Source of the DNA: Methanospirillum lacunae
GTDB taxonomy: Archaea; Halobacteriota; Methanomicrobia; Methanomicrobiales; Methanospirillaceae
Direction of reading: 5' to 3'
NCBI RefSeq assembly: GCF_003173355.1
Contig: NZ_QGMY01000015.1
Location: forward strand, 1 to 42,873
Length of the DNA: 42,873 bases
The notes beneath the pieces are model-generated. The model was not told where the DNA came from. It saw only the letters and a program-made list of their open reading frames with translations, and did not search any database. Numbering within the stretch: position 1 is the first letter of the stretch; each line of letters starts with the position of its first letter. The position numbers and the translations under genes are program-made. Positions 1 to 12,559 of the stretch are shown one piece after another.

Positions 1-61
1 GAAAGGTTCACGTACGGTTCTTAGAAGGGGGGAAGAGAGTAATCTCTTCTTCCTATTCGAC
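1..61 (+). ncRNA. 3' end of a group II intron (domains V-VI)
   Basis: The first 20 bases fit the GAAA tetraloop and 3' strand of domain V, including the ACGTACGGTTC segment typical of bacterial-type group II introns. A short TTAGAA joiner follows. Positions 30-53 can fold into a domain VI hairpin: GGAAGAGAG, a short loop, then CTCTTCTTCC. The sequence ends TTCGAC, a plausible intron 3' boundary (AY) at position 61. The 5' strand of domain V, domains I-IV and any intron-encoded reverse transcriptase would lie left of the window, so it cannot be told whether the intron is complete. It lies just upstream of the ATPase gene, inside the integrated element. Confidence 0.75.
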
Positions 62-76
62 TAAAACAATCTTCAA

Positions 77-1474
77 ATGATTACTTTAAATTATCAGAAT
101 ATCTATATGATCATAATTATGGGGATGAATGATAGTTTTAATGATGAAAAGATTCAGCTCTCTCATATTTCAATAAAAGATCTATTTGGAATATTTAACC
201 ATGAAATACCAATAAACACTCGAGATCATATAACGATAATAATTGGCCCAAATGGCGTCGGGAAGACTATAATTCTTAAAATATTAATCTGGATATTTAA
301 GTTCAATTTTGCTTCATTAATGGAAATTCCATTTACTTCTCTAAAACTTGATTTTAATCCAAATTATTCACTTACAATTAAAAAAGAGAGAATAAAAATC
401 AATTCTGAAAAAGAAGTCCATACAATTCTAAATTTTTACTTAAATTCTCCAGATAGTAATAGTCCTCGTCATTGGCAATATAATCCATCATCATTACTAG
501 AATCAAATAGATATATTAAGGTCTTTAATGGTTGGGAATTCTCAGATGAGGATATTGATGATAATATTGAATGGATCGGTTTAAATAATAAAAATTCAGG
601 TCGGCACAGAGTTGTTCATACACGAAGAAAAAAAGAATCACAAATTGAACCTTGGCTCATCTCTTTTTTACAAAAAATAGACATTCACCTAATAGAAACT
701 CAAAGATTGTTAATTATTGATCGGGGTTCAGATAATGAATATAATCAATACAAGAACGTTACCTCGAAGCGCAATTTAAAATATGTGGTAGAAGCTAATT
801 CTCAGGATTTAGTAGAAAAAATAAAAGAGATTAGTTTAGAGAACAATGCGATCTCACAATCACTTGAAAGGACATTCCCAATTAGATTAGCAAAATATCA
901 TAATGAAGGGAATATATCTGTATCTGACATTCAAAGAGAACTGGTTAATCTCGAGCAAAAAAGAAATGAACTTGCAAAAGTAGGGTTAGTTAAAAAAGAA
1001 GAGATTAATCTTGAAGAATTATCGGAAATTAATCCTGAAAATATTTCGATCTTATCTGTGTATATTTCTGATGTTAAGGAAAAATTAAAAATATTAGATA
1101 AATTTTATGAAAAAGTACATCTTTTTACTGACATCATATCTAGTCGATTTTTATTTAAATCAATAAGTATCGACCAGAAATTGGGCTTCTCATTTAAATC
1201 AAAAAATGGAGCCTCGATCCCTTTATCGGCATTATCATCCGGTGAACAACATGAATTAGTTCTAATTTACAATCTATTGTTTAAAGTAAATAATAATGCA
1301 TTAGTTTTAATTGACGAACCAGAATTATCTTTACATGTATGCTGGCAAGAACAATTTATTAATGATATTCAGAAAATTGCCGATATAATTGGTTTTGACA
1401 TAATTATTGCAACCCATTCTCCCGAAATTGTCAGTAATAAACTGAATCTAACTGTTCAATTAAACGGTGATTAG
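77..1474 (+). CDS. ABC/AAA-type ATPase, AriA-like subunit of a PARIS-type defence pair
   Basis: This is an SMC/OLD-like ATPase of up to 465 aa. Walker A is GPNGVGKT at residues 57-64, the signature LSSGEQ is at about 386-391, Walker B is LVLIDEP with D413/E414, and the H-loop is THSPEIV with H447. The central part (about 80-370) is charged and helical, as in coiled-coil insertions. ATGs at 77, 107, 119 and 125 are all possible starts; conserved sequence begins only near residue 27, so 119 or 125 is more likely than 77. The stop overlaps the next gene by 8 bases. In PARIS the ATPase (AriA) holds and then releases the DUF4435 nuclease (AriB) when it senses phage anti-restriction proteins. Here that role is inferred from domain pairing and sizes. 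Base composition is far more AT-rich than the genes after 4640, which suggests transfer. Confidence 0.8.
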   Translation: MITLNYQNIYMIIIMGMNDSFNDEKIQLSHISIKDLFGIFNHEIPINTRDHITIIIGPNGVGKTIILKILIWIFKFNFASLMEIPFTSLKLDFNPNYSLTIKKERIKINSEKEVHTILNFYLNSPDSNSPRHWQYNPSSLLESNRYIKVFNGWEFSDEDIDDNIEWIGLNNKNSGRHRVVHTRRKKESQIEPWLISFLQKIDIHLIETQRLLIIDRGSDNEYNQYKNVTSKRNLKYVVEANSQDLVEKIKEISLENNAISQSLERTFPIRLAKYHNEGNISVSDIQRELVNLEQKRNELAKVGLVKKEEINLEELSEINPENISILSVYISDVKEKLKILDKFYEKVHLFTDIISSRFLFKSISIDQKLGFSFKSKNGASIPLSALSSGEQHELVLIYNLLFKVNNNALVLIDEPELSLHVCWQEQFINDIQKIADIIGFDIIIATHSPEIVSNKLNLTVQLNGD

Positions 1475-2342
1475 GTTGGCATCTCGTCAAAATGCTGAAG
1501 TGATTTACACTTCACTTGTAATGAAGAGACAAATTGATAAAAGGGCGATAATCGTTGTTGAAGGAACAACCGATGAGAGAGTTTTCTATCGGTTTTTTGG
1601 AGATGAAAAAGTTCGATATGAGATTACTTATAATAAGGAAAAGGTTATTGATGTCGTAAATTTTGCTAATAGAGATTCATTTTGTGGTTTATTTGGTATA
1701 ATTGATTGTGATTATGATTTTATATTGAATATGTGTAAAAATATTCCCAATTTACTGTATACTGACTCTCATGACATCATAACAATGATTTTTTATTCTA
1801 ATGCATTTGATTTATTTTTAAGGGAATATGGATATGATCCTGAAATTCTTAAAATAAATCCAAATGTTCTAATTACTCTTTTAAACATTGTTATGCCTTT
1901 AGGGATATACCGACTATTAATTGAACAAAATAAGAGTTCCATCCAAGTTCAAATTAAAAATGCAAAAATTGAAGATTTTCTAGACTTTAACAATTTTTCT
2001 TTCAAGATAGAAGAATTTATTAACAATACATTAATTCCAAATAATGATGAAGGAATTAATACTATCTCAATAATGAAGAAAATTAATGAAAACCTTAAAA
2101 ACACATCGGTAGATATTTGGCATATCTGTAAAGGTCACGATCTGATTGTAGTATTATCTCAATTTTTAATCTTGAAAATTGGAAATAATCGAAAAGGAAA
2201 AAAACTGGATAATGACTTAACAGAAGCAGCACTAAGGGCTTATTATGAAATGAATTTTTTTATCTCAACTAAATTATTTAAGTCTATAGTTGATTGGAAT
2301 CTTAAAAATAGGGATTATTTATTTATAAATAATATTGAATGA
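1467..2342 (+). CDS. DUF4435/TOPRIM-like protein, AriB-like effector of a PARIS-type pair
   Basis: This 291-aa protein has the DUF4435 pattern. An acidic strand, VVEGTTDERVF with E32, is followed by GIIDCDYD with D80 and D82, which together resemble the TOPRIM metal site (E...DxD). The rest is helical, with low-complexity Asn/Ile/Lys-rich stretches. The listed start is GTG at 1467 inside the end of the ATPase gene; an ATG at 1521 (residue 19) is an alternative that still keeps E32. The 8-base overlap and shared AT-rich composition argue for co-expression with the ATPase. In characterised PARIS systems AriB is a toxic TOPRIM nuclease that cuts host tRNA. That activity here is inferred from family membership, not seen. 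Other ATPase plus DUF4435 pairs exist, so the PARIS label is probable rather than certain. Confidence 0.72.
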   Translation: MIRLASRQNAEVIYTSLVMKRQIDKRAIIVVEGTTDERVFYRFFGDEKVRYEITYNKEKVIDVVNFANRDSFCGLFGIIDCDYDFILNMCKNIPNLLYTDSHDIITMIFYSNAFDLFLREYGYDPEILKINPNVLITLLNIVMPLGIYRLLIEQNKSSIQVQIKNAKIEDFLDFNNFSFKIEEFINNTLIPNNDEGINTISIMKKINENLKNTSVDIWHICKGHDLIVVLSQFLILKIGNNRKGKKLDNDLTEAALRAYYEMNFFISTKLFKSIVDWNLKNRDYLFINNIE

Positions 2343-2724: not shown

Positions 2725-3621
2725 TTAAAATTCAAGAATTATATTTTTCCATGCATGCATATACACGTCATAAACATATTCAGGGAGAGGTGACTTGTAA
2801 TGAGCCCATTGAACTCCTGATACTCCGTGGGTGAGGATATATGATCGGTTAGAATCATTCCAACAGATAGCATCACCATGTTGTTCCGCAAACTTTCGTA
2901 AATCCCCAAGAATGAAATGATGCTGACATCGGGATAAAGGAAATTTTTTATGTTTAAGCCACATGTTGATGGAATGATAACTAGATAGCAACTCATCATT
3001 TTCCCTCCCTGATATTAAACAAGACAGTGGCTCTATCAAATGAGGATGAATGGGAACATAATGAGCCATCCTGATTTTATCCTTGTCCGATGGAATAGAC
3101 ATGCATGGCTTATCTGTACCTAATGCTTTCCTAACATCACCAACTGTAATTTTTGATAACGTGGCCTCACTCCTTTGACCTGTGTATGCTCCAAGCAGAA
3201 TTACGGTCCGATATTGCATAGCGCGGTCTGAACTAATCTCATCAGTTCTTTCAGCTTCATTGATCCTCTCAATCATTGTACTGATATCGTCAAGGGTTAC
3301 AATCCGAGATGTAACACATTTCCGAGTTTTTTTAGTTTTTGGTAGTTCAAGATATACTGTAAATGCAGAGTATTTCGGATTCATCGTTACCCTTCCAAGG
3401 TGATTGAGAAAAGATATAGCAAATCCCAAGGTTTTCACATGAGAGTCATAGGATTTGTATAAATTTAAGACAAAATTTCGATATTCACACAACGACGTAT
3501 CGTTTACCATTCCTTGCGTATGATCCCAAAATTGCTTTGCAGCCCTATCAAGCCAGTCTATCGACTTGGGTGATAACCCGTGACATCGATTATCAAGATA
3601 TAAAGAGAGATCTTCTTGCAA
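2725..3621 (-). CDS. archaeal tyrosine recombinase (integrase), probably the C-terminal part of an SSV-type split gene
   Basis: Numbered from a TTG at 3621, the 298-aa product shows a core-binding N-terminal region followed by a catalytic domain. Catalytic candidates are R150 in TGQRSEA, a Lys near 180-182, R242 in GDLRKF, H265/H274 in the stretch from THG to WAHYKSP, and a tyrosine in EYVYDVYM (Y284 or Y287). The end of the protein has the usual look of archaeal integrases. No ATG or GTG start is present. Upstream of the TTG the frame stays open on the minus strand to about 3789, through the whole tRNA-Val piece (3683-3724). This fits an SSV-type integrase whose attP lies inside the gene and which is split on integration, leaving this C-terminal part at the right border. 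If so, it is not functional until excision restores the gene. Confidence 0.85.
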   Translation of the reverse strand: MQEDLSLYLDNRCHGLSPKSIDWLDRAAKQFWDHTQGMVNDTSLCEYRNFVLNLYKSYDSHVKTLGFAISFLNHLGRVTMNPKYSAFTVYLELPKTKKTRKCVTSRIVTLDDISTMIERINEAERTDEISSDRAMQYRTVILLGAYTGQRSEATLSKITVGDVRKALGTDKPCMSIPSDKDKIRMAHYVPIHPHLIEPLSCLISGRENDELLSSYHSINMWLKHKKFPLSRCQHHFILGDLRKFAEQHGDAICWNDSNRSYILTHGVSGVQWAHYKSPLPEYVYDVYMHAWKNIILEF

Positions 3622-3682
3622 ATAATATAATTCAGATCTAATATTATCCTCGTGCGCCTTATTTTTTAAAATAGGCTCAAAT

Positions 3683-3724
3683 TTTACACGGCGGAGGTCC
3701 GGAGTTCGAATCTCCGTGGGCCCA
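3683..3724 (+). tRNA. 3' fragment of tRNA-Val(UAC), right attachment site (attR) of the integrated element
   Basis: The 42 bases match tRNA positions 32-73. Anticodon loop TTTACAC has anticodon TAC, followed by 3' anticodon stem GGCGG, variable loop AGGTC, T stem and loop CGGAG-TTCGAAT-CTCCG, 3' acceptor strand TGGGCCC and discriminator A at 3724, with no encoded CCA. Upstream bases cannot supply a D arm or 5' acceptor strand, so this is not a whole gene. Such 3' copies mark the distal border of elements integrated in tRNA genes. Because the tRNA reads on the plus strand, the intact gene and the other end of the element should lie to the left. Confidence 0.85.
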
Positions 3725-3829
3725 TAAAATTCTTTTTTATAGAAAAGTATACGTTTGTCTTCCTGTATTTTTATCGAAGATTTTTTTAATCAACGAATTT
3801 ATTTACCTCATTACTCCCTACTGAATTAT

Positions 3830-4639
3830 ATGACTCGATGGATTGTTGTGTTATTATTGTTTCTTCTTTTTGTGGGAATAGCATTCGCTGATAGTGATAA
3901 TAATACACCTACGACTTCAAATGCATGGAATCAGAAGGCCTTTTCATTACAAAATTTAGGAAAATTTCAAGAAGCTCTGAATGCTTCTAACCAGGCAACT
4001 CAACTGAATCCCAACAGTACCCAAGCTTGGAATACTCAAGCGTCAATTTTGATACATCTTGAGCGATATGAGGAAGCTCTTGCTGCAATAAATCAAACAC
4101 TTCAATTGAACCCAACAAATGCCTATGCTTCCACAACAAAAGACATGCTACTTGAGAAATTAGGTATAACTGATGAATCATCAGATACCGATCTCGTCCA
4201 AAAAGCAATAAAATTGTCAAATACAAAGAAAATGGATGAAGCATTAACAACGATTAATGAAGCAATAGCGCAAGATCCCAATAATATCAAAGCATGGGAT
4301 GCTAAAGCAACAATAATGTTAAAATTTGGAGATCGGGAAAGAGCGGTTGATGCACTTAATCACTCTGTCCAACTAAATCCAGATAGCACATTTGCATGGC
4401 ATACCCTGGGTTACACGTACATTAATTTAGACAGATATGAAGACGCTATTAAAGCATATGACGAAGAATTGCGATTAAATCCAACATCAGGTGATACTTT
4501 AAATAACAAAGCATATGCTTTACAAAAACTTGGGAAATATAACGAAGCGCTAGAAGTAATTAATCATGCTCTTGAGTTATATCCAAATGCATCTATTGAG
4601 TTACAAACGAAGAACAGTATATTGTCTCACTTAAAATGA
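3830..4639 (+). CDS. exported TPR-repeat protein
   Basis: The start is set at the ATG at 3830, because MTRWIVVLLLFLLFVGIAFADS is a good signal peptide or membrane anchor. The frame can be extended to a TTG at 3755, but that adds an unlikely leader. The mature part (about 250 aa) holds two groups of TPR-like repeats. The first has motifs such as AWNQKAFSLQNLGKFQEAL and AWNTQASILIHLERYEEAL, and the second has AWDAKATIMLKFGDRERAV, AWHTLGYTYINLDRYEDAI and TLNNKAYALQKLGKYNEAL. The Asp/Asn-Pro ends (LNPNS, LNPTN, DPNN, LNPDS, LNPTS) are typical of methanogen TPR proteins. It is probably a protein-binding scaffold outside the membrane. It is the first chromosomal gene after the integration site, and its partner is unknown. 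Confidence 0.8.
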   Translation: MTRWIVVLLLFLLFVGIAFADSDNNTPTTSNAWNQKAFSLQNLGKFQEALNASNQATQLNPNSTQAWNTQASILIHLERYEEALAAINQTLQLNPTNAYASTTKDMLLEKLGITDESSDTDLVQKAIKLSNTKKMDEALTTINEAIAQDPNNIKAWDAKATIMLKFGDRERAVDALNHSVQLNPDSTFAWHTLGYTYINLDRYEDAIKAYDEELRLNPTSGDTLNNKAYALQKLGKYNEALEVINHALELYPNASIELQTKNSILSHLK

Positions 4640-4648
4640 GAACCCGGT

Positions 4649-5095
4649 CTATTTTTTTAACATCTCATCAAGGATCTCTGCCGCTCCCCGGACCAACTCC
4701 GGACACACCTTCTTTGCAGCTCCAACCCTCTTTGATTCTGCCAGTTCTTCCGGGATCGCCATATTATACCCCAGGAGATCAGGACACTGAATAGATCCAA
4801 ATCTAGAGATAAACTTCTCTATAAACTCTTTATCAAGAGAATAACTCTTCTCTCTCCATTCTGGCTCCTGGAGAGAATTCATCCCGTTAGCCAGACCAAG
4901 AACCAGTATGGCACCACTGACTGCCCCACACATATTCCCGGTCCTGCCAATGCCTCCTCCAAAACCAGTCGAGATCTTTCGTGCCAGAGCCGGGTCGAGT
5001 CCATATTCTTTTGCATACACTGAAAAGACTGACTGGGAACAGGAATATCCTTCAGCTAGCAGATCAACTGCCTCTTGTGCATGATCCATATTCAT
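4649..5095 (-). CDS. C_GCAxxG_C_C family protein
   Basis: The small soluble protein (148 aa from the chosen start) has the family pattern: Cys in GYSCSQSV, the GGGIGR...MCGAVSGA block, then Cys in SIQCPDLL and KKVCPELV near the C-terminus. The family is thought to bind a metal or cofactor through these cysteines and is often annotated as a redox-associated protein; its reaction is not established. The frame opens 12 bases earlier (5107), but the ATG at 5095 has GAGAGG about 4 bases upstream, so I prefer MNMDHAQEAV as the N-terminus. It converges with the TPR gene, with 9 bases between stop codons. Confidence 0.85.
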   Translation of the reverse strand: MNMDHAQEAVDLLAEGYSCSQSVFSVYAKEYGLDPALARKISTGFGGGIGRTGNMCGAVSGAILVLGLANGMNSLQEPEWREKSYSLDKEFIEKFISRFGSIQCPDLLGYNMAIPEELAESKRVGAAKKVCPELVRGAAEILDEMLKK

Positions 5096-5354
5096 GTATC
5101 CTCTCATACCGGGATATCAATATCGAATAGGTCCGAAATATTCTTATCTCAAGAATTAGGACAAAATGTCAATCTAAATCTGATAAAAAACCTGGGTCTC
5201 TGATAGATCCATAGACTTAACTTCTTTTCAGATACATACTCACGAGCGCTATAGGGTAGATTTTTTACATTCTCTCCGTTGCCGAATTTCCAGGATATTC
5301 CCGTCCTTTGAGAGACTGGCCTTTCTATCTGGTAGTGCAGGAGAGTGGAATCAC

Positions 5355-6920
5355 ATGAAACAATTTCTGACAATCCTTTCTATCCTGATAGCCTGCCTGG
5401 TAATTATTGGGATATCTACCGGATCATCACAGAATGAATCCCCATCGGCAATAGTAAAGACAGACGCCGGTTTGATATCAGGTGTTCAGCAGGATAATCT
5501 CCGTGTTTTTCACGGCATCCCATTTGCTGCACCACCAACCGGAGAACTACGATGGAAACCGCCAGCACCCCCGATACCCTGGGATGGTGTGAAAGAGACA
5601 AAGGAATATTCTGCAACCTGTCCACAGCGGGTTTCCACCGGTAAGACTCCCTCATCAGGATCACAGCCGCTCAACATGAGTGAAGACTGCTTGTGTCTCA
5701 ATGTCTGGACCCCGGCACAGAGTGATGACGAAAAGCTACCGGTTATGGTCTTTTTCTATGGAGGGGGATTTGCTGATGTGGCTGGATCCATGCCGGTCTA
5801 TAATGGAACCACTCTGGCAGAAAAGGACGTCATCGTGGTCACTCCAAATTACCGGCTTGGAGCGTTGGGTTTCCTTGCCCACCCTGAACTTGATGCCGAA
5901 TCTATCCATAATAGTTCAGGAAATTATGGAATCCTCGATCAGATCGCTGCCTTGCAGTGGGTCCAGCGTAACATCGAATCGTTTGGAGGTGACCCATCCC
6001 GGGTGACACTATTTGGGCAGTCAGCGGGAGCGGAAAGTATTCTCGTACATCTGGCAAGCCCGGAGAGTAAGGGTCTTTACCAGCAGGCAATTGTTCAGAG
6101 TGGTCCTTTCTGGGCGGATGGGGCGATTATCAATGCCACCCATTCCAAAGCGGATGCTGAACAATTTGGTGAATGGTTTGCACAAAAACTCGGATGCTCC
6201 GGGCCTGATGCCATTAAACAGATGCGAAATATCAGTCCAGAAGACCTGATCAATGCTACACCCTGGACACCGTCCTCATTCTGGAGTACCCACACGGTCA
6301 TGTTTGAGCCAACGGTTGACGGTTGGATTCTCCCTGACACCCTGGATACTGTGTTCCGTCTCCACCAGGAAAATCCGGTCCCTCTCATTATCGGAAACAA
6401 TGCCAATGACGGAACAACCCTTTCGGCTGATGCCAATATGACGGTTGATGAGTACATAACGTTCCTTACAAACCGGTTCGGGGATAAAGCAGGTGCGGTT
6501 CTTGAAAAATATCCTGCTAATACAACTGCTGACGTGCAGCTCAGACTGGCAGAGATCATGACTGATTACGATTTCAGTGACTCGGTGAAGTTTGCAGCTG
6601 GATCCATGGGAGATATCAGCCCTAACACGTTCATGTACCGGTACTCGTATGTCCTTCCCGGGCAGCCATTAGGTGCTTTTCATGGAAGTGAGACGTTACT
6701 GTTGTTTAATGTTCCAGGAGTTCAATCCGATCCGGCAGTGGCCGCGAATGTAGTAGATCTCTGGACACGGTTCGCGAAGACCGGAGATCCAAATGGTGGA
6801 ATGAATATTACCTGGCCGAGTTACACCCTGAAGAAAGATCAGTACCTTGATATTGATACGGTCCCGGTAGTGAAAACCGGGAATTCAACGATTGCTCTAT
6901 TACAAGACCTGGAATCATAA
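5355..6920 (+). CDS. secreted type-B carboxylesterase (paralog 1)
   Basis: The 521-aa alpha/beta hydrolase has an N-terminal signal peptide (about residues 1-25). Family markers are GIPFAAPPTGELRW, the EDCLCLNVWTP motif with its disulfide-type Cys, the nucleophile elbow GQSAGAES with Ser223, an acidic residue in NNANDGT (Asp352 where most relatives have Glu) and the catalytic His443 in AFHGSE. The oxyanion segment reads FFYGGGF, so Tyr replaces the usual His of HGGG. A likely substrate is a small ester outside the membrane, but the exact one cannot be read from sequence. AGGAGAG lies about 10 bases before the ATG. A T8 tract follows the stop. A close paralog lies on the opposite strand at 8969-10474, with a secreted phosphoesterase between them. 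Confidence 0.9.
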   Translation: MKQFLTILSILIACLVIIGISTGSSQNESPSAIVKTDAGLISGVQQDNLRVFHGIPFAAPPTGELRWKPPAPPIPWDGVKETKEYSATCPQRVSTGKTPSSGSQPLNMSEDCLCLNVWTPAQSDDEKLPVMVFFYGGGFADVAGSMPVYNGTTLAEKDVIVVTPNYRLGALGFLAHPELDAESIHNSSGNYGILDQIAALQWVQRNIESFGGDPSRVTLFGQSAGAESILVHLASPESKGLYQQAIVQSGPFWADGAIINATHSKADAEQFGEWFAQKLGCSGPDAIKQMRNISPEDLINATPWTPSSFWSTHTVMFEPTVDGWILPDTLDTVFRLHQENPVPLIIGNNANDGTTLSADANMTVDEYITFLTNRFGDKAGAVLEKYPANTTADVQLRLAEIMTDYDFSDSVKFAAGSMGDISPNTFMYRYSYVLPGQPLGAFHGSETLLLFNVPGVQSDPAVAANVVDLWTRFAKTGDPNGGMNITWPSYTLKKDQYLDIDTVPVVKTGNSTIALLQDLES

Positions 6921-6935
6921 CCTGATCTCCGGGAC

Positions 6936-6943
6936 TTTTTTTT
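6936..6943 (+). terminator. T8 tract after esterase 1
   Basis: Eight consecutive T residues lie 15 bases after the stop codon. They follow a weak GC-rich stretch (CTCCGGGAC). Oligo-T alone can terminate archaeal transcription. Confidence 0.5.
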
Positions 6944-7050
6944 ACACATTATTTCTCCGGCATAATTTATTGAGATCATACGATTATCTGCGATTTAAAG
7001 GCGAATCCGGTATGAGTATATGAAAAATCGGGAACATGAGTAGTACATCA

Positions 7051-7059
7051 TTTTAAATA
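7051..7059 (+). promoter_or_regulatory. TATA-like box of the phosphoesterase gene
   Basis: TTTTAAATA is centred about 26 bases before the ATG at 7081. Archaeal transcription starts about 25 bases after the TATA centre, so the mRNA would begin at or beside the start codon. No Shine-Dalgarno sequence is visible before that ATG, which fits a leaderless transcript. Confidence 0.5.
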
Positions 7060-7080
7060 GAGATTGTTTCAAGTAGAAAC

Positions 7081-8769
7081 ATGAAACCATTGGTGGTACC
7101 AGGAATAGTGCTTGTATTATTCCTTATTGGCGGCATCGCTGGAGCCTATCCTATAGATTCCACGGTTGTTACTACCCTGAATCGTACTATCATTCCCGTT
7201 GCCGTGCCTCTGACATCACCTCAGATCCTTCCTGATGATGTCTCCAACTACTCGGTATATGGATATGGGGTATGGAAGTTCGGAGATGGACTTGGTTATG
7301 AAAAAAGGATTGACCTGATGCCAACCGGTTACTCCTATGCATCGGAGAACGGTTCTGCAAAACTGCTCCGGTTTTTTGACATGACAGATGTTCACATCAC
7401 TGACAAAGAGACTCCCACACAGGGTATCTATTTTGGGTACAAAGGGGGTCAGTCATCAGGGTATTCACCGGTAATGCTCTCATCCACTCAGGTTCTTGAT
7501 GCTGCTATCCAGACCGTGAACGCCCTCCATACTGAAGATCCGTTTGACTTTGGTATCGCTCTTGGTGATGTTGCCAACAACGAACAATACAATGAAATCA
7601 GATGGTTCATTGATGTCATGGACGGGAAAAGAATAAACCCTGATTCAGGTGTCAAGGATGACCCGGTTCCCGGACCACTGAATGATTACCAGGATGTGTA
7701 CCAGGCAGCAGGACTGAATAAGTCGATACCCTGGTATGAGGTTCTTGGCAATCACGATCACAACTGGATCGGAACAAATCCCCCTGATGGTTACCTGAAA
7801 TCGAACTATACCGGAGCCTACATCCTGAATATGGGTAATATTTTCACCAATCCTCTTGGTATCAAGAGCCGTGGATTCTATATGGGTGCAATCGATGGAA
7901 GAACGGTGAATGGAGATATCATCGGAGTTGGGAATGTATCTGATTTCAAAACACCTCCAAAAGTTCTGGCTGCCGATTCAAAACGCCGTGTCCTCACAGT
8001 TCCTGAATGGATGGGTGAATTTTTCAATACGACTTCAAACCCGAAAGGTCATGGGTTCAATAAATCTGACGCAGATTCAGGTTTTGCATGTTATTCGTTT
8101 GAACCTAAATCAGACATTCCGATAAAGGTCATTGTGCTTGACGATACCCAGAATGCGAACGATACTGATGTTGGCGGGTACGGGCATGGTTCACTTGATA
8201 ATGAACGGTTCACCTGGCTTGTAAACGAACTGGATCAGGGTCAGGCTGAAGGCAAACTGATGATCATTGCTGCTCACATCCCGATAGCAACAGAGGCAAG
8301 TGGTTCTTCTCTTGATGAATATACCGGATGGAGCTCGGTTGCTGAGATATCAGAGCAGCAGCTGCTTGATACTCTGCATACCTATCCAAACCTGATCCTG
8401 TGGATAGCAGGACATCGACATGTCAATGCCATTACTCCGCAGATATCACCGGATCCTGATCACCCGGAACTCGGATTCTGGGAGGTTGAGACCTCATCAT
8501 TGCGTGATTTCCCACAGCAGTTCAGGACTTTTGATATTGTCAAAAACAGCGATAATACGATCTCTATCTTTGCAACAGATGTTGATCCGGCAGTAAAAGA
8601 TGGAACGATTGCTGCAAAGTCACGTTTCTACGCCGTGGCAGCAGATGAAATATTTAACAGTTCTATTCCGTATAAGCCAAGCGGGTCATATAATGCAGAG
8701 CTCGTTAAACAAGTAACTCCTGATATGCAGGAGAAGATTCAGAATCTGGGAACCCCCCAACTCTCCTGA
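7081..8769 (+). CDS. secreted calcineurin-like metallophosphoesterase
   Basis: The 562-aa protein has an N-terminal signal peptide (about residues 1-22) and the full two-metal phosphoesterase motif set. These are D103-x-H105 in MTDVHITD, G162-D163 in ALGDVANN, GNHD at 223-226, a later His in IIAAHIPIA and GHRH in WIAGHRHVNA. Length and layout fit the large family of secreted metallophosphoesterases often described as TIGR03768-like, which are longer than the roughly 300-aa core enzymes. The likely activity is hydrolysis of phosphomono- or diesters outside the membrane; the substrate is unknown. It lies between two inverted esterase paralogs and is convergent with the second. Confidence 0.88.
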   Translation: MKPLVVPGIVLVLFLIGGIAGAYPIDSTVVTTLNRTIIPVAVPLTSPQILPDDVSNYSVYGYGVWKFGDGLGYEKRIDLMPTGYSYASENGSAKLLRFFDMTDVHITDKETPTQGIYFGYKGGQSSGYSPVMLSSTQVLDAAIQTVNALHTEDPFDFGIALGDVANNEQYNEIRWFIDVMDGKRINPDSGVKDDPVPGPLNDYQDVYQAAGLNKSIPWYEVLGNHDHNWIGTNPPDGYLKSNYTGAYILNMGNIFTNPLGIKSRGFYMGAIDGRTVNGDIIGVGNVSDFKTPPKVLAADSKRRVLTVPEWMGEFFNTTSNPKGHGFNKSDADSGFACYSFEPKSDIPIKVIVLDDTQNANDTDVGGYGHGSLDNERFTWLVNELDQGQAEGKLMIIAAHIPIATEASGSSLDEYTGWSSVAEISEQQLLDTLHTYPNLILWIAGHRHVNAITPQISPDPDHPELGFWEVETSSLRDFPQQFRTFDIVKNSDNTISIFATDVDPAVKDGTIAAKSRFYAVAADEIFNSSIPYKPSGSYNAELVKQVTPDMQEKIQNLGTPQLS

Positions 8770-8897
8770 TTTTTCCGAAAATGTATCATACCTCTTTTTC
8801 ACGGATGAAATGGTCTATGGGTGAAGTTCTGGTATAACTGATTGTCAGGCAACAGGCTCCCTGTTTCGGCCAGTTCAAAAGGAAAGCAGTACGTACA

Positions 8898-8937
8898 TTC
8901 ATTCACTCTCCAGAATGAACCGATGAGAGAGAATGAA
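8898..8937. terminator. hairpin between convergent genes
   Basis: TTCATTCACTCTC at 8898-8910 pairs with GAGAGAGAATGAA at 8925-8937 (12 of 13 positions) across a 14-base loop. It sits between the stop codons of the phosphoesterase and the minus-strand esterase, where a bidirectional termination or RNA-stabilising structure would be expected. There is no clear T tract beside it. Confidence 0.4.
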
Positions 8938-8968
8938 CTGAATATGAAAAAGAAGAGAGTGTTACAAG

Positions 8969-10474
8969 TCACTTTACAATTGGAGCAGCCCCGATATCAA
9001 GATAGGCTCCATCTTCGGTGTACTTCGGCCAGGAGACATTCATTCCACCATTCGGATCCCCGGTCTTTGCAAACCGGGTCCAGAGATCGATCATGTTCTC
9101 TCTGACTGAATCAGTTACCGGGTTTTCAGGTAATGGGACACCAAAGAGGAGCATGGTCTCGCTGCCATGGAATGCTCCGTAGGGTTGCCCGGGAAGGACA
9201 TACGAGTACTGGTACCGGTATGTATCTGGGCTTATATTTGCCATGGATCCTGCTACAAATTTAACCGGGTCAGTAAAGTCATAATCTGTCATGATCTGTT
9301 CCAGTCTGAGCTGTACTTCTGCGGTTGAATTTGCAGGATATTTCTCTAAAACCACACCGGATTCATTCCCAAACCTGCTCTGAATAAAGGTGCTGTACTC
9401 CTGGACACTCATGTTGGCGCCAGCTGCAAGGGTTGTTCCATCATTAGCATTGTTTCCGATGATGAGTGGAACCGGATTCTCGCGATTTTCACGAAATACT
9501 GTTTCCGGTGATTCCGGTATAACCGAGCCGTCGATTGTCGGCTCAAAATGCGGAGTATTCACCATCTTAAACGAAGAATTCGGCCAGGGTGTTGCATTGG
9601 TGATATCCTGGTAACTCAGGGTACGCATCTGCTTTATCGCATCAGGGCCTGAGAAACCAAGGCTCTTTGCATATGCCTCTCCAAGCTGTTCAGCATCAGC
9701 CTTGGTGTACAGGGCATCAATCTCTGCTCCCTTTGTCCAGAAGGTGCCACTCTCTACGATTGCCTGTTGATAAAGCTCTTTCGTCTCTGGATTTGCCAGA
9801 TGAATGAGAATACTTTCTCCTCCGGCAGACTGCCCAAATATTGTCACCCTGGATGGATCACCGCCAAAAGATTCGATGTTTCTCTGCACCCACTCCAGAG
9901 CAGCAATCTGATCAAGGAGCCCGTAGTTACCAGAACTATTCTGTGAAGACTCTGCATCCAGTTCAGGGTGAGCAAGGAATCCGAGAGCTCCTACCCGGTA
10001 ATTGGGAGTGACCACAATGACACCCTTTTGTGCAAGAGCCGTCCCGTTATAGAGAGACATAGAACCTGCAATCTTTCCAAATGCTCCACCATAGAAAAAG
10101 ACCATGACCGGGAGCTTTTCGTTGTCACTCTTTGCCGGGGTCCAGACATTGAGATACAGACAGTCCTCGCTCATGGAAAGATTCGGATCTGCAGCAATCG
10201 GCTGGGGACATGCCGGTGAAAAAGCCGTTGTTTCCTTGACCCCTTCCCATGGACTCACCGGCTCTGGTGCTCTCCATCGAAGTTCTCCGGTAGGGGGAGC
10301 AGCGAATGGAATTCCAAGATATACCCTGAGTCCATCCTGTACTAATCCTGAGATAAGACCAGCATCGGTTTTGACCACCGCTGATGGCGTCTCATTCATG
10401 GATGCTCCTGCAGAAATCCCGATAAATAACAGGCAGATTACCAGGAAAAAACCAACGTTCTTGTGTATGTTCAT
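8969..10474 (-). CDS. secreted type-B carboxylesterase (paralog 2)
   Basis: This is a clear paralog of the esterase at 5355, matching along almost its whole length (for example TDAGLISG, GIPFAAPPTGELRW and FMYRYSYVLPGQP-like segments). It keeps the GQSAGGES elbow, NNANDGT with Asp and AFHGSE with the catalytic His. Its oxyanion segment reads FFYGGAF, so it differs from HGGG at two positions. The start is placed at the ATG at 10474, which has GGAGG about 6 bases upstream; the frame is open from a GTG at 10486. The N-terminal MNIHKNVGFFLVICLLF segment is a signal peptide. It ends shortly after APIVK and lacks the 14-residue tail of paralog 1. Confidence 0.9.
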   Translation of the reverse strand: MNIHKNVGFFLVICLLFIGISAGASMNETPSAVVKTDAGLISGLVQDGLRVYLGIPFAAPPTGELRWRAPEPVSPWEGVKETTAFSPACPQPIAADPNLSMSEDCLYLNVWTPAKSDNEKLPVMVFFYGGAFGKIAGSMSLYNGTALAQKGVIVVTPNYRVGALGFLAHPELDAESSQNSSGNYGLLDQIAALEWVQRNIESFGGDPSRVTIFGQSAGGESILIHLANPETKELYQQAIVESGTFWTKGAEIDALYTKADAEQLGEAYAKSLGFSGPDAIKQMRTLSYQDITNATPWPNSSFKMVNTPHFEPTIDGSVIPESPETVFRENRENPVPLIIGNNANDGTTLAAGANMSVQEYSTFIQSRFGNESGVVLEKYPANSTAEVQLRLEQIMTDYDFTDPVKFVAGSMANISPDTYRYQYSYVLPGQPYGAFHGSETMLLFGVPLPENPVTDSVRENMIDLWTRFAKTGDPNGGMNVSWPKYTEDGAYLDIGAAPIVK

Positions 10475-10750
10475 ATGATCCTCCACTTTTTCCCGTCTGT
10501 AATTGGTCTTCCTTCATCTGAAAAGGATAGATTACTGAAAAACATCGGGATTTCTTTACAATAATGCCAGAAACCAGAGCACTTTTGATATCTATTCGGC
10601 TATGAACGATTAAGACTTTGTATCACAATGATACAGAAATCTAAAGGTTATGAAAATGAAGTTCAAGACCGTAATGTGCTCAGTCAAACAACAGAACGTG
10701 GAATGTCAGGGATACCTAAGCAACTTAACCGAAGTTTTCAGAAACTTTTT

Positions 10751-10758
10751 TTTATACT
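10751..10758 (+). promoter_or_regulatory. TATA-like box of the META lipoprotein gene
   Basis: TTTATACT follows a T-rich run and is centred about 24 bases before the ATG at 10778. No ribosome binding site is visible, so a nearly leaderless transcript is likely. Confidence 0.5.
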
Positions 10759-10777
10759 CCATGGCTAAGTACCAACC

Positions 10778-11350
10778 ATGAGAAAAATTCTCATTGTCGT
10801 GGGTATCGTAATGGTACTTCTTCTTCTGGTGACCGGGTGTACAAGTCAGACTGAATCAAAACCAGTTTCCACCCCGGCCACAACAGCCCCTACAGCAACA
10901 ATCACTCCAAGTCAGACTGAAATCGTTTCTGCTCCGGTTAAGGCTGCAGCTTCAGACTCTTCCCTCCTGGGAACATGGTATCTGAAACTCATGTCTGATC
11001 AGAATGGTACCGCTCTGGTTCAGACGATAAATCCGGAGACAACAGTCATCTTTGAGGATAATGTAAACCTGACCGGGTATTCTGGCTGTAACAATTACAT
11101 GGGCAGTTATACTCTGACTGGGAAACCAGACGCAGATGGAAAAGGAATAACCATTGGCCCTCTTGCGTCAACGAAAAAATACTGTCAGGATGGAGCCTCT
11201 ACAGAAACAACCTATCTGCAGATCCTTGAAGGTGCAACATCATACCTGGTAAATGAAAACAAGGAGTTGTCGATTACTGACAATGCTCAAAATACACTCG
11301 TATACCAGAGGACCCCGTATAGCACTACATCAGTGCCAATGGGCTCCTAA
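10778..11350 (+). CDS. META-domain (HslJ-like) lipoprotein
   Basis: The 190-aa product starts with a lipoprotein-type signal ending LLVTGC, with Cys21 as the probable lipid-modified residue. A Thr/Pro/Ser-rich linker runs to about residue 60. The META domain follows with LLGTWYL, LTGYSGCNNYMGSY, GPLASTKKYC and a final LVYQR strand. The two domain cysteines (SGCNN and KKYC) are typical of this fold. META/HslJ proteins are linked to heat-shock or cell-envelope resistance in bacteria; in archaea the role is unknown. It stands alone with its own promoter and a terminator hairpin. Confidence 0.85.
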   Translation: MRKILIVVGIVMVLLLLVTGCTSQTESKPVSTPATTAPTATITPSQTEIVSAPVKAAASDSSLLGTWYLKLMSDQNGTALVQTINPETTVIFEDNVNLTGYSGCNNYMGSYTLTGKPDADGKGITIGPLASTKKYCQDGASTETTYLQILEGATSYLVNENKELSITDNAQNTLVYQRTPYSTTSVPMGS

Positions 11351-11376
11351 TATTTTTGAATAGATTATTGATTTAC

Positions 11377-11412
11377 CGTCCTATTCAAAAAAGGACGTTC
11401 GGTTTCTTTTTT
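11377..11412 (+). terminator. hairpin plus T-rich tail after the META lipoprotein gene
   Basis: CGTCCT at 11377-11382 pairs with AGGACG at 11392-11397, and an outer ACC/GGT can extend the stem. A T-rich run TTTCTTTTTT follows at 11403-11412. This resembles an intrinsic terminator 27 bases after the stop codon. Confidence 0.6.
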
Positions 11413-11515
11413 CCTATCGATTGAATATCAACACAAACTATTCCTTCAGATTGCTTGTAGCATTTATACGATGAGAAAAATCCTTTTATTAACATTCACA
11501 GTTTCAGCGTAAGCA

Positions 11516-12559
11516 TTACATGTTATGCTCATCTTTTTGACATAGTTTTCCGTACCCATAATGTTTTATAAAAAAAGACCGGACTTTCTCAGACTCCACC
11601 CATCCATGATCGAGCCGGGATACAAGGTTGTTGATATGATCTATTTGCTCTAATACAATTCTGCTCTCCTCGTCATCATGAAGGGATATAATTGACATAA
11701 TGACTGCAAGAGGGTTCCTGATTTCATCATTTAGTATCTGGAATTGCTCCATATTTTTCTCAATCTGAATTATCCCCTGCTTTTCCATCTCTTTATCAAA
11801 TAAGACCTGTATGGTAATATCCCGTGACAAGGCGATAATCTGAGTTATATTATTTGTGCGGGATAAAATTGGAACAAAGATAGTATCCAACCAGAACTCA
11901 TCTGAATCAAGTTTACCCTGCAGAGTAATGCGCTGGTACCTTCCTTCACTGAGAATTGAATCAAGAGATCGTTGTACCTGATCTACCAGTTCCTGTGGAA
12001 ATATATCAGATAACTCAATTTTGGATTTTCCAATTCTCTCTTTCTTGAAGAATTGGATTGCATAGGAGTTTAAATATGCAATTGAATAATCACGGTCAAA
12101 TATTATTATAGAATCCTGGGCGAGTTCAGCAATAGCCCGATATCGTCTCTCACTTTCCATCAGTTTCTGATCCAACTCATGTTTGTAGAGAGCCATCATG
12201 ATACTGGTTTTCAGGTTCTTTTCTTCAAACGGTTTGATGATATACCCGAAGGGTTCACTCTCTATCGCCTGAAATATGGTACTGTCATCTGCCTGTCCGG
12301 TGAGATAAATCACAGGAATATTAAATTGCTCTCTGATATGGGTTGCAGCAGTAATGCCGTTCATCTCTCCGTTGAGAACAATATCCATCAGAACGATATC
12401 AGGCTTTAATTGTTCTGTTGCCTTTATTGCTCCCTCACCAGTATCTTCAACTCCAACAATCTCAAATCCCATCCCCCCAAGAAGAAGATTTAAAGCTGAA
12501 GCGGTGATAAACTCATCTTCAATAATGAGGATTTTTTTATTCTGTGGTATTAAATTCAC
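11516..12559 (-). CDS. response regulator: REC-PAS with a kinase-dead HisKA-like C-terminal module
   Basis: The 347-aa soluble protein has a receiver domain (residues 8-125, acidic pocket E14/D15, phospho-acceptor D59 in VLMDIV, T88, K109) and a PAS domain (about 135-255). Residues 266-338 look like a HisKA dimerisation hairpin but carry LNDEIRNPLAVI where kinases have SHELRTPL, so D278 replaces the phospho-acceptor His. No HATPase domain follows. The same module ends the PAS protein at 25908-27701. The start overlaps the upstream kinase gene by 4 bases (ATGA), so it is the last gene of a three-gene operon. A role as output or relay end-point for the two kinases is inferred. Confidence 0.85.
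   Translation of the reverse strand: MNLIPQNKKILIIEDEFITASALNLLLGGMGFEIVGVEDTGEGAIKATEQLKPDIVLMDIVLNGEMNGITAATHIREQFNIPVIYLTGQADDSTIFQAIESEPFGYIIKPFEEKNLKTSIMMALYKHELDQKLMESERRYRAIAELAQDSIIIFDRDYSIAYLNSYAIQFFKKERIGKSKIELSDIFPQELVDQVQRSLDSILSEGRYQRITLQGKLDSDEFWLDTIFVPILSRTNNITQIIALSRDITIQVLFDKEMEKQGIIQIEKNMEQFQILNDEIRNPLAVIMSIISLHDDEESRIVLEQIDHINNLVSRLDHGWVESEKVRSFFIKHYGYGKLCQKDEHNM

Follow-up and report, generated by a model that had tools for sequence, protein, structure and literature searches.

A putative tRNA-Val(UAC) attachment site within the probably split tyrosine-integrase gene of a mobile element in Methanospirillum lacunae

The window, by which we mean the whole 42,873-nucleotide stretch of DNA from Methanospirillum lacunae analysed here, corresponds to the entire contig C15 in a 25-contig draft genome (G000), and near its left end contains what is very probably the right attachment site (attR) of a mobile element inserted into the tRNA-Val(UAC) gene, together with the C-terminal piece, int(C), of an integrase gene that was split through its own integration. 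In the proposed mechanism, the circular element would carry the integrase gene as a single ORF (its joined length in the relatives being about 413-436 aa) that begins with a small N-terminal domain and a linker, continues with 14-18 codons antisense to the 3' end of a tRNA, which codons would constitute attP, and ends with the core-binding and catalytic domains. Upon recombination of attP with the tRNA gene by the integrase, an intact tRNA would be rebuilt at the left end, where the start and the N-terminal piece, int(N), would also stay, while a startless int(C) would be left at the right end, so that the element would not easily excise itself.

The integrase frame and the tRNA-Val core in the window

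A minus-strand ORF of 298 aa with a TTG start occupies positions 2725-3621, and its in-frame extension remains open to 3789, being preceded there by a TGA. An earlier note on this DNA had described an integrase without an ATG or GTG start whose frame stays open from 3621 back to about 3789, which description our examination of the frame confirmed: neither codon occurs in the int frame ahead of the conserved domain, the TTG at 3621 being the sole start-like codon there. Within the extension, positions 3683-3724 match, at 100% identity, the 42-base 3' end of the tRNA-Val(UAC) gene on contig C5 (G000:C5:60224-60297; match at C5:60256-60297), the only gene for that tRNA in the genome, and thus correspond, as had been proposed, to tRNA-Val positions 32-73; a side-by-side reading of the sequences extended the exact match with the tRNA-Val region to base 3725. 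The further claim that the integrase frame crosses the tRNA-Val fragment holds for this core, at 3683-3725; as a correction, 3726-3789 is chromosomal flank outside the element, where the openness of the int frame is incidental. When 3622-3789 was shuffled by mononucleotides, all 56 codons were open in 0.8% of the trials; the open frame by itself is therefore moderately surprising and only suggestive, and it is the relatives that decide.

The features of this region are collected in Table 1. The G+C content is 28% in the cargo at 1-2342, to the left of the core, versus 45% at 4641-12000. As a separate observation, the AriA-like and AriB-like genes of that cargo form a PARIS-like anti-phage pair that adjoins int(C). 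The dispersed repeat at the contig's left end would seem to resemble the 3' end of a group II intron.

Table 1. Positions of the element, its integrase piece and the adjoining features in the window
Feature	Position	Strand	Evidence or remark
Dispersed repeat end, contig break point	1-66	+	94-100% copies at C8:1, C10:1, C14, C17
Element cargo: AAA_15 ATPase, AriA-like (PARIS defence)	77-1474	+	Pfam; PADLOC
Element cargo: AriB-like TOPRIM protein (PARIS defence)	1467-2342	+	PADLOC AriB E=2e-17
int(C), probable C-terminal fragment of a split tyrosine integrase	2725-3682	-	Open frame; family alignment A2; AF2 and Foldseek; PHROG E=6e-6
Putative catalytic Tyr, Tyr275 (HYK motif)	2797-2799	-	Nearly invariant in A2; aligns with Tyr of PF00589-positive Archaeoglobaceae integrases
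Putative catalytic Arg II, Arg242 (LRKF motif)	2896-2898	-	Invariant in A2
Putative catalytic Lys, Lys182 (QDK/DKDK motif)	3076-3078	-	Invariant in A2
Putative catalytic Arg I, Arg150 (TGQR motif)	3172-3174	-	Invariant in A2
attR core: copy of tRNA-Val(UAC) 3' end (bases 32-73 plus one base), antisense within the int frame	3683-3725	+	Identity to C5
Chromosomal flank right of attR	3726-4655	.	Homology to G207 returns only at 4656
TPR gene within the right flank	3755-4639	+	TPR domains (Pfam)

The int(C) comprises a core-binding and a catalytic domain, plus a short linker after the att core. No model from Pfam or NCBIfam matched the window's integrase protein convincingly and a sequence search of the PDB yielded no integrase match, the PHROG integrase families giving a weak match (Table 1). 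The conservation of the four putative catalytic residues was read from an alignment of 15 relatives (A2). In addition, the family profile aligned over its length (hhalign, 99.1%) with integrases of the homolog group f9 that match PF00589, and the AF2 model of int(C) (pLDDT 89) matched lambda Int and an archaeal Xer recombinase in Foldseek. This predicted core-binding and catalytic fold, along with the R-K-R-Y residues, places the protein in the tyrosine-recombinase superfamily, and site-specific integration is the activity that we would predict for the family. Because the fold of int(C) is complete with respect to those two domains, the missing N-terminal piece is an additional domain; its predicted structure was poor (pLDDT 48), and no fold was assigned to it. 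As for the constraint on int(C), the comparison of the window with its counterpart in genome G203 gave a pN of 0.15 and a pS of 0.82, synonymous sites being saturated, so that no dN/dS is given for this pair, while that of G194 with G182 gave a dN/dS of 0.09.

Relatives with both ends assembled

The int(C) family profile found matches in 23 to 24 of the 232 genomes of the order, and the scan of the genome contigs resulted in 29 named loci in its second run, the first having given none; among the viral, plasmid, and phage collections no relatives were found, the matches at E up to 10 being chance ones only. Ten elements had both ends assembled (G201, G194, G182, G197, G057, G203, G072, G213, G099, and G054), among which G182 is a Methanoregula element and G057 one of Methanoculleus sediminis. 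In every one of the ten, the repeat, of 42-55 bp and identical at both ends, falls within a single reading frame, with int(N), the core, and int(C) following one another in frame; and an intact RNA gene bearing that repeat is located at the far end, some 5-15 kb away, in the orientation predicted by the model. The int(N) begins with an ATG on the far side of the repeat, contains the domain PKPGYxYPYxRFP...LIGK...IF, and shares its frame with int(C). All ten joined ORFs cross the core without a stop, and where a stop is reached within the joined sequence, the ORF measures 413-436 aa. By chance the frames would agree in about 1/3 of cases per element; since the elements are related, we did not multiply that value as if they were independent.

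The attributes of the type I, or suicidal, class can accordingly be sought at two levels. The location of attP inside the integrase ORF is seen in the window, whose frame crosses the core, as well as in the ten relatives; the location of int(N) beside the intact tRNA, with int(C) at the opposite end, is seen in the ten paired relatives, while of the window element itself only int(C) is present among the two split pieces.

The profile of the N-domain matched in 27 of the 232 genomes of the order, and most of the copies continue in frame into tRNA sequence. Genome G356 contains an uninterrupted N-core-C ORF, plus a second, beheaded N-core copy that ends at tRNA-Val(CAC). Immediately upstream of int(N) in G194 lies another gene (L047:5456-5815), whose product is a second, independent protein that also has this N-domain. 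The joined ORF of G203, for its part, ends in an internal TAA, and its int(C) (L011, G203:C42:225043-225942), the closest to that of the window with 76% identity, has an in-frame TAA near the catalytic tyrosine motif, from which we conclude that the decay of that int(C) is under way.

The chromosomal site and the competing explanations

The earlier note had predicted that an intact tRNA-Val(UAC) would be located to the left of the window with an N-terminal int piece beside it, of which two predictions only the former was borne out. The tRNA-Val(UAC) gene lies 1.9 kb from the right end of C5. In G207, a genome of the same genus, the sequence on the left side of tRNA-Val corresponds to that of C5 as far as base 60298 and, on the right side, to that of the window from 4656 onward, the order and orientation agreeing with those of C5 followed by the window, and the break occurring at the 3' end of the tRNA; no int is detectable in G207. 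Speaking against the model, positions 3726-4655, immediately to the right of the core, have no DNA-level conservation in G207. Since this synteny covers both contigs in order, C5 and C15 are chromosomal neighbours, with C5 directly to the left of C15 and the insertion between them.

Downstream from the C5 tRNA there are 224 bp of unique sequence, followed by repeated transposase-like sequence up to the end of the contig. The predicted N-terminal piece was absent from the 1.9 kb after the tRNA and, in searches with two profiles, from the draft genome as a whole, the 224 bp being likewise without an N-domain; the int(N) of the window element would either have been lost, have become separated by the transposase-like repeat, or lie within the assembly gap between C5 and C15. 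We slightly favour the view that the element is a decayed relic and its int(C) an orphan, the int(N) having been deleted when an insertion sequence or some other element entered between tRNA-Val and the element, which view is a sub-case of the split-gene explanation and no alternative to its mechanism. Consistent with such a decay are the content of the sequence after the C5 tRNA and the result of the profile searches that, within the order, int(C) alone occurs in eight genomes and int(N) alone in twelve, but the frame of the window's int(C) is intact, with all the putative catalytic residues kept, and the gap between C5 and C15 may contain the int(N), for instance beyond another element in tandem.

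Much less probable, and in our estimation quite unlikely, is that the gene were a classical integrase of the pNOB8 type, complete from the TTG at 3621 and with the att site merely beside its 5' end. The predicted int(C) does carry by itself the core-binding and catalytic domains, and certain distant homologs (group f7), which start with ATG just downstream of a sense tRNA, look unsplit. The earlier note had likewise named a complete integrase homolog that starts at that TTG as a finding that would speak against a split gene; the family profile, however, begins at 3630, upstream of the TTG, which codon is therefore not the start. Moreover, the close homologs of int(C) have no conserved start, whereas in ten of ten pairs a conserved N-terminal piece continues in frame across the core. 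The profile start and the paired int(N) thus largely refute a complete gene. Finally, that the frame were open through the tRNA fragment by accident, and the integrase unrelated to the att site, has almost no probability left: antisense tRNA is often open and the shuffled sequence occasionally was, but the agreement of the frames throughout the pairs, the conserved N-domain, and the lack of a stop refute chance at the level of the family.

Target sites and comparison with known integrase systems

In most of the relatives of the split integrase, the core is the antisense 3' half of a tRNA (Val, Asp, Glu, Phe, and others). In G201 (L042:2645-2986, L140), the core corresponds, in sense, to the 5' half of tRNA-Val, and in G134 (L149), G135:C4 (L153), and G198 (L150) int(N) runs in sense through the tRNA-Val 5' half, so that transcription of the restored tRNA would originate on the side of the element. 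The locus in G198 (L150, G198:C1:3121331-3121492) is an orphan int(N) adjoining tRNA-Val(CAC), no int(C) having been found in that complete genome. In two members, G072 (L074:15289-15361, L136:1776-2119) and G212 (L143:993-1333), the int(N) frame extends into the archaeal gene for RNase P RNA at its 3' end, as identified by Rfam RF00373, and the int(C) end in G072 also has a fragment of that gene; the RNase P RNA gene thus appears to have served as an integration target in at least two members. The archaeal targets given in a 2021 review are tRNA genes, intergenic sites, and protein genes, RNase P being unmentioned (PMC8371274).

The family ranges over the Methanomicrobiales and the Archaeoglobaceae, to which latter the f9 homologs, that carry an antisense tRNA in frame, would belong. 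The f7 homologs (L239-L243, L254; presumably Bog-38) are distant and occur several per genome; they appear to be unsplit, in which circumstance a single family would have split and unsplit members.

The organisation in the window may be called SSV-type because the annotated integration site of SSV1 likewise lies inside the integrase ORF, D-335. With SSV1 and SSV2 (type I, fuselloviruses) the window family shares the att within the int ORF, the antisense 3' part of a tRNA, and the division into a small N-terminal and a large catalytic C-terminal piece. The designation as an SSV-type split integrase in the earlier note is accordingly sustained with respect to the mechanism, in view of the ten pairs in frame, but not with respect to the sequence family: PF16795 and PF07935 (Phage_integr_3 and SSV1_ORF_D-335) are absent from the family, while SSV1 and SSV2, as positive controls, match both strongly, and the hhalign probability between the family and the SSV1/SSV2 integrases was 2.9% for the C part and 0.5% for the N part. 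With another N-terminal domain and negligible profile similarity, the window family falls, by sequence, outside the SSV integrases.

The suicidal integrases of the pT26-2 type, whose hosts are Thermococcales and Archaeoglobales (PMC8371274, PMC6972569), resemble the present family in the suicidal gene organisation, the many tRNA targets, an att of ~58 nt, and the Archaeoglobales hosts (PMC8371274, PMC6972569); they differ from it, a distinction that we draw from their description, in that they are said to carry Phage_integr_3 (PMC8371274), a domain absent here by Pfam. In a tblastn of family members against plasmids there was no Thermococcus match. The suicidal integrases of the pTN3 type are approached by those members that use the tRNA 5' half in sense (G201; and, at the int(N) side, G134, G135:C4, and G198), a course that has been reported for pTN3. 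According to the 2021 review, 5'-half targeting is unique to pTN3 among the archaea (PMC8371274); here, in contrast, the members of a single family include users of the 5' half as well as of the 3' half. The pNOB8/SNJ2 type (type II) likewise consists of tyrosine recombinases at tRNA genes, but a gene of that type stays intact on integration.

The window family is apparently unnamed. Whether it constitutes a separate self-splitting family of methanogens and their relatives, with an N-domain of its own and no Phage_integr_3, with an att that moved among 3' halves of tRNAs in antisense, 5' halves in sense, and the RNase P RNA gene at its 3' end, and with distant members that are apparently unsplit, we judge to be evenly poised; were this so, the split-gene habit would have arisen or vanished more than once. 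Because the att site encodes part of the protein, a move from one tRNA half to the other, or to RNase P RNA, necessarily alters the protein, and the family offers natural test cases as to how such enzymes switch targets and whether int(C) keeps activity. The 2021 review considered self-splitting integrases to be a trait of hyperthermophilic archaea that all share one Pfam domain and probably arose once (PMC8371274), which picture would be broadened by a sequence-distinct family in the Methanomicrobiales (Methanoregula, Methanoculleus) with ten full pairs.
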